A stretch of 41,489 bases of DNA from Acidobacteriaceae bacterium (GTDB lineage: Bacteria > Acidobacteriota > Terriglobia > Terriglobales > Acidobacteriaceae). Below the pieces are notes generated by a model. The model saw only the letters and a program-made list of their open reading frames with translations. It was not told where the DNA came from and ran no database searches. The DNA lies in contig JASHOY010000503.1 in assembly GCA_030038435.1 (NCBI GenBank), positions 1-41,489 on the forward strand, given 5' to 3'. This document shows positions 25,673 through 29,564 of this stretch, piece by piece; within the stretch, counting starts at the first letter, position 1; every line of letters begins with the position of its first letter. A program made the position numbers and the translations under genes.

Positions 25673-26095
25673 TCAAGACTTGTTGTTCGCTGAAGATGAT
25701 CGCGCCCCCGGCTGGGGATGCTCCACCGGCGCTTTGCGCAGCGGGACAATAGCCCCTGAAGCGCTTGGCGCCGACTGCTGGAAGCGCGAGAGCATCTCCG
25801 AGCGCACGTATTCGACAAACCTCTGCATCTGCCGATTCATCTCTTCCATGCGCTCGCGCATCTGCAGGATGATCGCGATGCCGGCGATGTTGACGCCCAG
25901 ATCGCGCGCGAGATTGAGGATGAACTCGAGTCTCTCCAGGTCCTCGTCCGTGTACAGCCGGGTGTTGCCCTCCGTGCGCGAGGGCTTGAGCAGCCCCTCG
26001 CGCTCGTATAGACGCAGCGTCTGCGGGTGAATTTCGTACATCTCGGCGACGGCCGAGATCATGTAGGCGCCTTTGGATTTGCGTTTTGCGGGCAT
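25673..26095 (-). CDS. HspR-like MerR-family heat-shock regulator
   Basis: A 140-residue MerR-family protein of the HspR type, which represses the dnaK/dnaJ/clpB regulon in actinobacteria and others by binding HAIR sites. The HTH reads 'YMISAVAEMYEIHPQTLRLYEREGLL', where 'HPQTLRLYE' is the HspR hallmark; 'TEGNTRLYTDEDLERL' follows as wing and second helix. The tail is low-complexity and Ser/Ala/Pro-rich. It lies 33 bases downstream of an uncharacterised gene, so it is transcribed with it. No HAIR palindrome (CTTGAGT-N7-ACTCAAG) was seen upstream of dnaJ or here. Confidence 0.85.
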   Translation of the reverse strand: MPAKRKSKGAYMISAVAEMYEIHPQTLRLYEREGLLKPSRTEGNTRLYTDEDLERLEFILNLARDLGVNIAGIAIILQMRERMEEMNRQMQRFVEYVRSEMLSRFQQSAPSASGAIVPLRKAPVEHPQPGARSSSANNKS

Positions 26096-26128: not shown

Positions 26129-26614
26129 TTACCGAAAATCCGACCCCTGCGGTGTGCCGGTAAAAATCGTGGGAACCATCTCCTCCATGGTCACATTTCC
26201 CTGAGCGATGCGCCGGGGAAGAACCGGCCAAAGCTGTCCGCCATAGATCCGGTAGGGCACGGTCACTTTGACTGCGTACCCGCCCCTCCGCTCAATCTGA
26301 AACACGATGGCATCCGAGTAGCCTTCTTCCGATGGCTGAGCCAGGGTCACGTCGGCCGCTATCGCCATTGCTTGGATCTCGCCGCGATCCGCTCGCTTAC
26401 TTCCATGATCATGCACCATCTTCCACAGCCTCGCCGGGTCGGCCGGTAGCTGCGGCAGTTCCAGCATCTCGCGGGATACGCTACCGTCCGCCTGCATAGA
26501 AAAGGCAAACGGGCTGATTTCGCCATAGCGCCGAAGCACCCGCCGCGCAAATGACATCGCAGTGCTCAAAAGCTCATTGGCTGCCGCCCGATTCTGCTCC
26601 TCGACATTCTTCAT
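26129..26614 (-). CDS. hypothetical protein, uncharacterised family
   Basis: A 161-residue protein from ATG 26614, with AAAGG upstream. No signal or membrane helix. The pattern 'SFARRVLRRYGEISPFAFSMQADG' near the N-terminus and 'SDAIVFQIERRGGYAVKVTVPYRI' later resembles a widespread group of small uncharacterised bacterial proteins. No catalytic motif stands out. It sits between the composite DFS/PD-(D/E)XK gene (63 bases) and hspR (33 bases) on the same strand, so it could belong to the inserted block or be an older neighbour of hspR. Confidence 0.65.
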   Translation of the reverse strand: MKNVEEQNRAAANELLSTAMSFARRVLRRYGEISPFAFSMQADGSVSREMLELPQLPADPARLWKMVHDHGSKRADRGEIQAMAIAADVTLAQPSEEGYSDAIVFQIERRGGYAVKVTVPYRIYGGQLWPVLPRRIAQGNVTMEEMVPTIFTGTPQGSDFR

Positions 26615-26677
26615 GCGGCCTTTTGTCTCCGGGCACGGTAACGGCAAGAGCCAAAAATGCGGCGGGACCGCCCTACG

Positions 26678-27289
26678 TCAGCCAACTGCCGGAACCTTTT
26701 CCTGCCGGTTTTGGAACCGCATTCGATACGGTTTCAAGAGCTCCTTCAATTCCTTGCCCGCGCTGCGCACAAAGTAATACCCGTCCTTCGTCCACGAGTC
26801 GGTCTTGGAATAACCCTTTGCATCCATTACCTTCAATGCCTGATCGAACGTGAGCAGGTAAACGTCGCCTTTGTCACCGGCATGCACATTCCAGACGTAA
26901 GCAATCAGCAGGTTCGGGAATCTTGCGTATTTACGGTCCAGCGAGAAAGACTCCTGCCTTGACGCCTTCATCTGCACGGGCTTGGCACTGAAGTCACTGT
27001 CGTCCTGGTAAACAATCAGATCGATCCCTTTGTCCCGCAGTGGCTCGGCGACTTCAAATCCCGCGGCAAGCAACCGCGAAATGAGCAGATGCTTGCCGGC
27101 AATCTCGACCAGCTGCGGATCACTTTCGGAAGATACAAGGGGATCGTCATGGTCCGGCTCCCCGGGAAGCAGCGCGAGGGAGTGGCCTTTCCTGTAACGC
27201 TCATAATATTTTCCGCGACTTGCCTTCGAAAAATCGAATCTTCTCCGCAATTCAATTTCCTGTTTGCTTTTCCCAGCCGCTGATCTCAT
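26678..27289 (-). CDS. composite protein: BrnT-associated DFS-type module plus PD-(D/E)XK nuclease-fold domain
   Basis: A 203-residue protein. Residues about 17-42 (RRRFDFSKASRGKYYERYRKG) carry the DFSxxxRGKYY pattern of short proteins often encoded beside BrnT toxins and thought to be antitoxins. From about residue 58 a second, different domain follows: a helix beginning VEIAGKHLLISRLLAAGFEV, then GIDLIVYQDD, VQMKAS and a tail with 'LLIAYVWN'. The order Glu-helix, Asp (GID) and Q-x-K matches a PD-(D/E)XK nuclease-fold core, DUF4365-like. Whether it is an active nuclease cannot be read. The start ATG overlaps the brnT-like frame by 38 bases, so the two are coupled. Confidence 0.7.
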   Translation of the reverse strand: MRSAAGKSKQEIELRRRFDFSKASRGKYYERYRKGHSLALLPGEPDHDDPLVSSESDPQLVEIAGKHLLISRLLAAGFEVAEPLRDKGIDLIVYQDDSDFSAKPVQMKASRQESFSLDRKYARFPNLLIAYVWNVHAGDKGDVYLLTFDQALKVMDAKGYSKTDSWTKDGYYFVRSAGKELKELLKPYRMRFQNRQEKVPAVG

Positions 27290-27563
27290 ATATCCTCCTT
27301 TCCCACGGCTCTGCGAGCCTGGCGCTTATGATTCGAATGCGATCTTTGCGTTCAGCGAAACACATCGTAAGCAAGCGCCGCTTCTCAGAGAACCCAATCG
27401 CAAGGCATCTTTCCTCGTCGTAGCTGTGCAGCCGGTCAGGCACCACCAGGTGCCGTTTGTCCCCAAATACTGTCGTCGCCTCTTGAAATGAGACTTTGTG
27501 CTTCTTCAGATTCGCAGATGCCTTTGATCGGTGCCATTCAAATTTGTGGTCGTCGATGTTACT
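27252..27563 (-). pseudogene. BrnT-family toxin frame without a canonical start codon
   Basis: A frame of 103 codons plus stop, open from after a TGA at 27566-27564. It matches the BrnT ribonuclease fold: KFEWHRSKASANLKKHKVSF, then 'EERCLAIGFSEKRRLLTMCF', and 'ERKDRIRIISARLAEPWERR'. BrnT is an RNase toxin of type II TA systems. No ATG, GTG or TTG begins the N-terminal portion; the first is GTG at 27446, after the first domain strand. An ATG at 27567-27565 is one base out of frame; removing one A near 27559-27560 would restore an MKYIDDHKFEW start. It is either a 1-base inactivation, an assembly error, or a non-canonical start. Confidence 0.75.
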
Positions 27564-27624
27564 TCATTCTTCGGTGTTGTACTCCAATTCCCACCGCTTT
27601 CAGGTCCAATCTTCGCCACTCGCG

Positions 27625-28809
27625 CTAGAGCTTATCAAAAAGCGCTACCCGCGGGTCCTGCGGGTTGAGGCGCGCCAGCTCCCGCATGATCTCGCGACTG
27701 CGCTCGTCCTGCAGATGAGGAACCGCAACTTCAACGGTCACGATCTGGTCCCCGCGCTGGTCGGGGTGCTGGGCGCTCTCCACGCCGCGTTCCCGCATGC
27801 GCAGCTTCTGGCCGCTCTGCGTGCCCGGGGGAATCTTCAACTGCGCGCGGCCGTCGATGGTGGGCACGTCCACCTTAGCCCCCAGCGAAGCTTCCGCGAT
27901 GGTCACCGGTATGGTGATATTGATGTCGTCACCGGAGCGCGTGAACACCGGGTGCGTGCCGGTGCGCACAATGAGAAACAGATCCCCGGCGGGTCCGCCG
28001 TTGAGGCCGGCATTTCCTTTCCCCTGCAGGCGAATGCGCTGGCCATCGCGGGTGCCGGCCTTGATGCGGAATTCAATGCTTTCTGAACGTCCCACTACGC
28101 CCTCTCCGTGGCAGGTAGGGCAGGCGTTGGAAGTGCGGCCGGTGCCGTTGCAGCGCGGGCAGGGAATGTTGAATTTCATGCGCCCGCCCATCTGCGTAAC
28201 CTGGCCGGTGCCGTTGCACTCGGGACAGGTGCTGGAACCGCCGGTGTAGGCCTGGCCATGGCATGTGGGGCAGGTTTCCTGCCGATTGACCTGAATGCGC
28301 ATCTGGCCGCCGCGAATGGCGGTCCAGAAGTCAACCGTCACCTGGTATTCGAGATCGGTGCCGGGCTGCGGCCCGCGCGGGCGCTGTGGCTCGTGGGCCC
28401 CCGTAAAAATGCCGGAAAAGATGTCCTTGAAGCTTCCCCAGCCGCCTGATCCGGCTCCCTGCTGGTTTCCTGCTCCGGAAAAATTGGAAAAATCGAAGCC
28501 CTCGAAATCGACCCGCGGCTTGCTGCCGCCCCCTGCCTGCTGCCGCGCGTAGGCCTCGGCCTGGGCGGGATCGATCTGGTCGGAATAGAAGCCCAACTGG
28601 TCGTAAATCTTGCGCTTCTTCTCGTCGCTCAGCACATCGTTGGCTTCCGAGATTTCCTTGAACTTTTCTTCGGAGCGCTTGTCCCCGGGATTCACGTCAG
28701 GATGGTATTTCCGCGCAGCTTTGCGGAAAGCCTTGCGGATCTCCTCCTGCGTGGCCGTCTTCTTTACTCCGAGGGTGGCGTAATAGTCCTTGTTGGTGGT
28801 CGTCGGCAT
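27625..28809 (-). CDS. dnaJ: chaperone DnaJ (zinc-finger type)
   Basis: DnaK co-chaperone of 394 residues, normal for type I DnaJ. The J domain (residues about 6-72) has the HPD motif in [11 protein letters not shown] Gly/Phe-rich stretch follows (about 95-140, with '[20 protein letters not shown]'). Four CxxCxGxG zinc motifs are visible, CPTCHGQA (the first slightly altered), [16 protein letters not shown] and CPTCHGEG, then the C-terminal substrate domain and 'LFDKL' end. dnaK and grpE are not in the window. dnaJ ends 61 bases before the brnT-like frame. Confidence 0.96.
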
Positions 28810-28925: not shown

Positions 28926-29306
28926 TCAGGCAATGGCGCGATTTGTATTTACCTGTGGCCGGTAACCTGGCCGGGGACGAATCTCCTCTCGAATCGCCGC
29001 CCGCTCGGCATTGGAAGCCGATTCCAGATCGTAATCCATTTGCAATCGCATCCAGAATTCCGGCGTCATGTTGAAGTAGCGAGCCAGGCGCAAGGCTGTG
29101 TCCGCGGTAATGCCACGCCGCTCACGCACAATTTCGGAGATGCGCGTGACCGGGACGCGCAGGGCGATGGCCAATGCATTTGCCGACAGACCAAGCGGCT
29201 TCATAAATTCTTCGCGCAGCATCTCGCCGGGATGCTGTGGCGGCAGCAATGCACCGTCATGCATCGCAACCCGTGAGGGAATCGACGATTTGGACTTGGT
29301 AGACAT
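28926..29306 (-). CDS. higA: HigA-family antitoxin
   Basis: A 126-residue XRE-type antitoxin of the HigBA system. The start ATG at 29306 is preferred over 29312 because GGAG at 29318-29315 is 8 bases upstream. The HigA hallmark HPGEMLREEFMKPLGLS is followed by the HTH 'ANALAIALRVPVTRISEIVR' and 'RGITADTALRLARYFNMTPE'. Its cognate toxin is encoded just upstream but is broken (see higB remnant), so this antitoxin appears orphaned. It lies 116 bases before dnaJ on the same strand. Confidence 0.92.
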   Translation of the reverse strand: MSTKSKSSIPSRVAMHDGALLPPQHPGEMLREEFMKPLGLSANALAIALRVPVTRISEIVRERRGITADTALRLARYFNMTPEFWMRLQMDYDLESASNAERAAIREEIRPRPGYRPQVNTNRAIA

Positions 29307-29564
29307 CGCCATTGCTCCATCGTAAACAAATTCTGGACGGGTCTTTGCAGAGATTCGAGACCGGTCCTTGATTCGCAGCCGCGATTGACCCTCCCCACCG
29401 CCTTCAGCGTCTCCAGCCTATTGCCTGGAAATGCAAACAATTCCTGGACCGTGGAGTCGCCCGAACTCCGGCGCATCTTCCGAACCCCAACCCGCTCCTC
29501 TGCCGCATGCCGTGCCTGTGATGGAAAATCCGCTCCGTTTTCGAATTGCAAAGCGGCGTTTCAT
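29278..29564 (-). pseudogene. higB: higB toxin remnant (frameshifted)
   Basis: Pieces of a HigB RNase-toxin gene lie upstream of higA in three or more frames. Frame one carries NSKTERIFHH (about 29512-29545). A second frame at about 29399-29513 runs HAAEERVGVRKMRRSS to PGNRLETLKA. A third (about 29361-29393) reads GQSRLRIKDR. A fourth (about 29279-29332) gives ICLRWSNGDVYQVQIVD. Together they are in the HigB order, but each junction changes frame, so no functional toxin is made. The 3' end overlaps the higA start, as in intact modules. Confidence 0.85.

Follow-up and report, generated by a model that had tools for sequence, protein, structure and literature searches.

An antitoxin fused with a PD-(D/E)XK-like nuclease domain is encoded beside the toxin gene brnT in the window (the whole stretch of DNA analysed here, 41,489 nucleotides from an Acidobacteriaceae bacterium). 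This architecture is real and beyond chance, since it recurs beside brnT in 12 other species with pN far below pS. According to the explanation that we favour, with a probability of roughly 0.55, the N-terminal DFS segment holds BrnT in check, and the nuclease has been kept as a second, DNA-directed effector in place of the DNA-binding half of the antitoxin. The features of the window used below are as follows.

26678–27289, minus strand: antitoxin-nuclease fusion, 203 amino acids (open reading frame list; homologues in 12 other species)
27125–27289, minus strand: residues 1–55, putative DFS toxin-binding segment plus remnant β-strand of the ancestral antitoxin (profile-profile match)
26711–27124, minus strand: PD-(D/E)XK domain, residues 56–193 (AlphaFold2 and structural alignments)
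27104–27106, minus strand: E62, first-helix acidic residue, presumed active site (residue counts)
27020–27022, minus strand: D90, presumed active site (residue counts)
26966–26974, minus strand: Q106-M107-K108, (D/E/Q)XK element (residue counts)
27252–27563, minus strand: brnT toxin frame (PF04365, E 7.9e-26, 90.6 bits against a cut-off of 34.5)
27625–28809, minus strand: dnaJ, upstream flank of the module (PF00226, PF01556, PF00684)
26129–26647, minus strand: conserved accessory protein of 172 amino acids in the dnaJ-hspR interval (homologues in many other dnaJ-hspR intervals)
25673–26095, minus strand: hspR-like MerR regulator, downstream flank of the module (PF13411, E 4e-20)

The fusion gene overlaps brnT

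The sequence-only reading had proposed that a 203-residue protein encoded on the minus strand at 26678–27289 joins an antitoxin to a nuclease-like domain. The open reading frame is found there, with the BrnT frame immediately upstream and overlapping it, and the quoted motifs are present (DFSKASRGKYY at residues 19–29, GIDLIV at 88–93 and VQMKAS at 105–110). The two genes share a strand, the toxin gene comes first, and the fusion frame starts inside the 3′ end of the BrnT frame; a ribosome-binding site (AGGAGG, 27294–27299, minus strand) stands just 5′ of its ATG. Searches of the fusion protein against Pfam and NCBIfam returned no family above its cut-off, and PF14384 (BrnA, ribbon-helix-helix) gave no match in Pfam.

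A residue check showed that the window BrnT retains the catalytic K-H pair and the ISAR motif. Residues K16, H17 and R72 have been listed for BrnT (PMC13284704), and we equate the K-H pair and ISAR motif with them. No ATG, GTG or TTG was found upstream of the conserved part of the window brnT frame; brnT of relatives has an ordinary start codon. The toxin of the window may therefore be silent or be translated from a rare start codon; alternatively, the draft assembly (512 contigs, 7% contamination) may contain an error at this point. Within 27540–27640 (minus strand), an out-of-frame ATG lies just upstream of brnT and is followed by a stop after two codons.

The fused domain has a predicted PD-(D/E)XK fold and a conserved candidate active site

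The nuclease domain was modelled with AlphaFold2 from a nine-sequence alignment, and residues 61–190 mostly reached a pLDDT above 90. The best Foldseek matches of the model were PD-(D/E)XK enzymes (E down to 1.3e-4), and structural alignment (VIA-align) gave Z 11.1 to I-Ssp6803I (3.1 Å, 120 residues), Z 10.7 to the SPARDA nuclease and Z 9.3 to Hjc. The confident model thus bears out the fold that had been called from motif order, with no indication of a different one. The families named beforehand as templates (DUF4365, Mrr and VRR) fared less well: the domain is a Pfam member of none of them, with Mrr_cat reaching 12.3 bits against a cut-off of 21 and the other two unlisted. A sequence comparison of the fused domain with solved structures gave no match.

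Residues E62, D90, Q106 and K108 of the window protein match what we take to be the active site of I-Ssp6803I (E11, D36, Q49 and K51). Among the fusions, E62 is present in 10 of 13, Q106 in 11, and both D90 and K108 in all 13; among stand-alone homologues, the glutamate, glutamine and lysine are each found in 37 of 38 and the aspartate in 38 of 38. The complete set is retained in ten fusions, the window protein included. Only L003, L004 and L243 show losses, all three lacking E62 and two also Q106, which indicates that catalysis is dispensable in some copies.

The nuclease half is clearly under purifying selection. Between the window protein and its nearest relative (L235), the nuclease part has pN 0.103 and pS 0.62 and the N-terminal part pN 0.254 and pS 0.55, and among nine copies from the genus the nuclease part has a median pN of 0.24 against a pS of 0.83; these ratios are rough because synonymous sites are near saturation. 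The PADLOC defence candidate PDC-M02A matches the window protein weakly (E 5.7e-4, 47 of 169 profile positions) and gives a weak partial match in all five A3 members scanned (best 3e-6). The likeness extends over some 40–60 residues of the nuclease core and takes in under half of the profile.

The N-terminal segment is homologous to short BrnT-linked antitoxins

The N-terminus had been recognized as carrying the DFS pattern usual for short neighbours of BrnT. A profile built from the first 53–56 residues of 12 fusions was compared with a profile of ten short antitoxins that stand beside BrnT at other loci, and the two matched over 37 columns (probability 98.7%, E 1.5e-16), which establishes that homology. 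The aligned pattern is DFS..RGKYY.RY..G..V.LL, and the homologous part comprises the first ~45 residues of the fusion protein. AlphaFold2 gives residues 1–55 a pLDDT mostly below 60 and predicts them to be disordered alone. From the homology, the DFS segment would bind and silence BrnT.

C-terminal to the DFS segment, the short antitoxins have a strand-helix-helix-like stretch (LDPDVA..FPDS..VN.ALR), a putative small ribbon-helix-helix, on which Pfam makes no ribbon-helix-helix call. Other BrnTs of this bacterial family have ribbon-helix-helix-type partners that PF14384 does match, one of them scoring 1.3e-11. The nuclease fusions keep the strand after the DFS segment, and the helices are gone.

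The fusion recurs beside brnT and the nuclease alone does not

Searches of 250 genomes of the family and 80 of the genus yielded 12 further fusions (L002–L004 and L235–L243), full-length in 12 other species and 36–76% identical to the window protein. The fusion is therefore carried by 13 species of one family of soil acidobacteria, which rules out an assembly artefact joining two genes in one genome. All 13 fused copies adjoin brnT (PF04365), which lies directly upstream, and have hspR downstream; dnaJ lies upstream of the module in all but L002, where the contig stops before reaching it.

A pattern scan of 84,980 species genomes returned 42 loci, six fused and 36 stand-alone. The six match fusions already found in the family and genus searches, and the 36 come from Pseudomonadota, Planctomycetota, Chloroflexota, Cyanobacteria, Actinomycetota and other groups. 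Flanks examined for 38 stand-alone sequences contained brnT in none, so that linkage to brnT differs between fused and stand-alone forms (13/13 against 0/38; Fisher test 2e-12, on copies that are related and not independent). Separate halves unlinked to brnT, the pattern that would speak against a genuine fusion, thus occur for the nuclease half only, and an unlinked nuclease is what would be expected if that half was captured. Predicted fold, N-terminal homology and brnT linkage agree with the proposed joining of an antitoxin to a PD-(D/E)XK-like domain.

No homologues were found in phages or viral contigs, and a plasmid search returned only distant nuclease-like matches. Several neighbours of the stand-alone nuclease were recorded. 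By eye, it adjoins a HicB-like frame in L006 and another small PD-(D/E)XK-like frame in L007; an Abi_C gene (Pfam) is nearby in L009, and a PDDEXK_9 gene follows it in L005. Tyrosine-family, integron-integrase-like genes stand divergently beside it in L255 (1873–3468) and L263 (1870–3468), as for a first cassette.

The dnaJ-hspR site carries exchangeable antitoxin tails

An hspR orthologue is present in 236 of 250 genomes of the family. In seven members of the window's genus the site is empty, with a dnaJ-hspR gap of 31–73 bp; in other genomes the interval holds the 172-residue protein, an acetyltransferase-like gene (by eye) or a BrnT module. The window interval contains only brnT, the fusion and the gene for the 172-residue protein; the latter has no Pfam family and recurs across the bacterial family in this interval with or without a toxin-antitoxin pair.

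The antitoxins at this site end differently. A plain short antitoxin accompanies BrnT in five genomes (G202, G242, G236, G158 and G140). In G246 (L010, 1486–1986) the BrnT antitoxin N-terminus is followed by two DUF1508 repeats (PF07411, E 1.4e-45). In G220 and G249 (L247, 1453–2166; L248, 1501–2214), beside a different BrnT lineage, the antitoxin carries a second type of fused domain, marked by an invariant TPDF...CExK pattern, and G124, from the window's genus, has a decayed copy of this type (remnant in L250/L252). The second domain is called nuclease-like by motif only, because its model is too poor to serve as fold evidence (pLDDT 39) and a search of the PDB by sequence gave no match of nuclease kind. 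Finally, in G662, also of the window's genus, dnaJ and hspR flank a lone nuclease gene with no BrnT (L244, 1459–2004). Differing tails at one site indicate that the C-terminal half of the antitoxin is exchangeable.

In a tree of BrnT, the toxins of 12 nuclease fusions and of the DUF1508 fusion form one clade (support 100/99), so the tail was exchanged within one toxin lineage. The toxins of G195, the second-domain fusions and the short-antitoxin modules fall outside that clade, and the starred branches require five or more changes of site; modules thus reached the dnaJ-hspR site more than once.

Upstream of dnaJ in the window lies a HigA-family antitoxin gene (28926–29312, minus strand; TIGR02607, E 8e-33). 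The frame adjoining it upstream (29201–29551, minus strand) resembles a degraded HigB by eye; the HigA-family gene may therefore be an orphan antitoxin.

A proposed second effector in the antitoxin

Type II antitoxins usually combine a toxin-binding segment with a DNA-binding autorepressor. In the mechanism that we propose, the DFS segment would bind and silence the BrnT RNase, and the nuclease domain, its catalytic residues kept in most copies, would be a second DNA effector in the same complex. Heat-shock control of the operon would replace autorepression, making a DNA-binding autorepressor unnecessary: lying inside a dnaJ-hspR operon, the pair probably relies on the control of that operon and not on a repressor of its own. 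This control is assumed: a search of the window for the HspR operator (HAIR) gave a single match with three mismatches, as expected by chance, and that match is not near dnaJ. Degradation of the antitoxin, or its engagement elsewhere, would then free BrnT. The most likely use of the pair would be defence against foreign DNA, a weakly supported proposal for which the Abi_C and PDDEXK_9 genes and integron-like integrases near stand-alone homologues and the weak PDC-M02A matches give a hint.

The main rival, which we consider unlikely, is that the nuclease fold serves as a scaffold only: an inactive or barely active DNA-binding or dimerizing module that replaced the ribbon-helix-helix and yielded a larger antitoxin. 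The loss of E62 from three of the 13 fusions, and of Q106 from two of these, fits such a role, as do the short ribbon-helix-helix-like antitoxins at the same site elsewhere and the DUF1508 tail, which can occupy this position on the toxin lineage of the nuclease fusions and is, to our knowledge, not known as an enzyme. However, ten fusions have the full E-D-Q-K set, the domain is under strong constraint, and the same four residues are almost invariant in stand-alone homologues. A rather improbable alternative starts from a defence nuclease that was first in the dnaJ-hspR interval; a brnT-antitoxin pair inserted upstream would have been fused to it in frame, so that the toxin would now punish loss or blockage of the nuclease. 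Although the nuclease is a widespread stand-alone gene and stands alone at this very site in G662, the branch of that copy (L244) is long and attaches at an open node of the tree; being unplaced, it may equally reflect a later loss of BrnT. This alternative also has less to say on the parts than on their origin and trigger, and it partly coincides with the explanation that we favour. That the nuclease instead acts on RNA and clears the mRNA of its own toxin is very improbable. There is a precedent in the Acidovorax citrulli BrnT-partner antitoxin Aave_1719, for which RNase activity on the toxin mRNA has been reported (PMC10714953), but Aave_1719 is a BrnA-family protein of 107 amino acids and the closest folds of the window domain are mostly DNA enzymes.

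We retain the reading of a DFS segment that restrains BrnT and a nuclease that acts as a second effector. A broader statement, which we advance tentatively and at slightly less than even odds, is that the pair is a two-effector toxin-antitoxin in which the DNA-binding half of the antitoxin is an exchangeable slot: here it would contain an active DNA nuclease, kept in one complex with the RNase toxin, and in other modules at this heat-shock operon site it would be filled by DUF1508 repeats or by the second nuclease-like domain. An enzyme fold has taken the place of the second half of an antitoxin, with toxin pairing kept across 13 species, which suggests that antitoxins can swap their regulatory half for a second weapon. 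One site offers a natural series that comprises the empty interval, a lone nuclease, a short antitoxin, fusions with the nuclease, with DUF1508 or with the second nuclease-like domain, and a decayed remnant. The system tests whether autoregulation is dispensable for a toxin-antitoxin pair in a host stress operon, and whether the antitoxin itself can be an effector.

Comparison with known systems

In the literature searched, with most subscription journals outside its coverage, we found no report of a BrnT antitoxin fused to a PD-(D/E)XK domain. I-Ssp6803I, Hjc and the SPARDA nuclease share the fold of the window protein over residues 55–203, and I-Ssp6803I presumably also has glutamine at the (D/E)XK position. 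In contrast, identity in the best structural alignments is 9–18%, and no intron or Argonaute adjoins the fusion; the Argonaute partner of SPARDA is absent from the window dnaJ-hspR interval, and the other fusion loci have no room for one.

The pair resembles BrnT/BrnA (PF04365 plus PF14384) in its K-H and ISAR toxin, in the toxin-first order with an overlapping antitoxin gene and in an N-terminal DFS motif of the antitoxin, which BrnA-type partners in the family's genomes share. It differs in that the fusion lacks the ribbon-helix-helix that defines BrnA, leaves PF14384 unmatched and has a PD-(D/E)XK domain instead; we therefore call it a BrnTA variant and not a member. Published cases include proteins in which BrnT is fused with BrnA (PMC11980606). 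The Aave_1720–Aave_1719 pair of A. citrulli likewise has a BrnT-like toxin gene followed by an overlapping antitoxin gene, and nuclease activity of the antitoxin has been reported there (PMC10714953). In that double-ribonuclease pair, however, the published RNase antitoxin is the BrnA-family, RNA-acting protein considered above, with no PD-(D/E)XK fusion described. Also comparable is RelS-RelI of Mycobacterium tuberculosis, with a BrnT-like toxin, toxin-first order and some antitoxin homologues fused to further domains, namely DUF3887 or DUF2812 (PMC13284704). Those fused homologues are reported to be typically stand-alone (PMC13284704) and are non-nuclease, whereas fusions of the window type stay beside their toxin.
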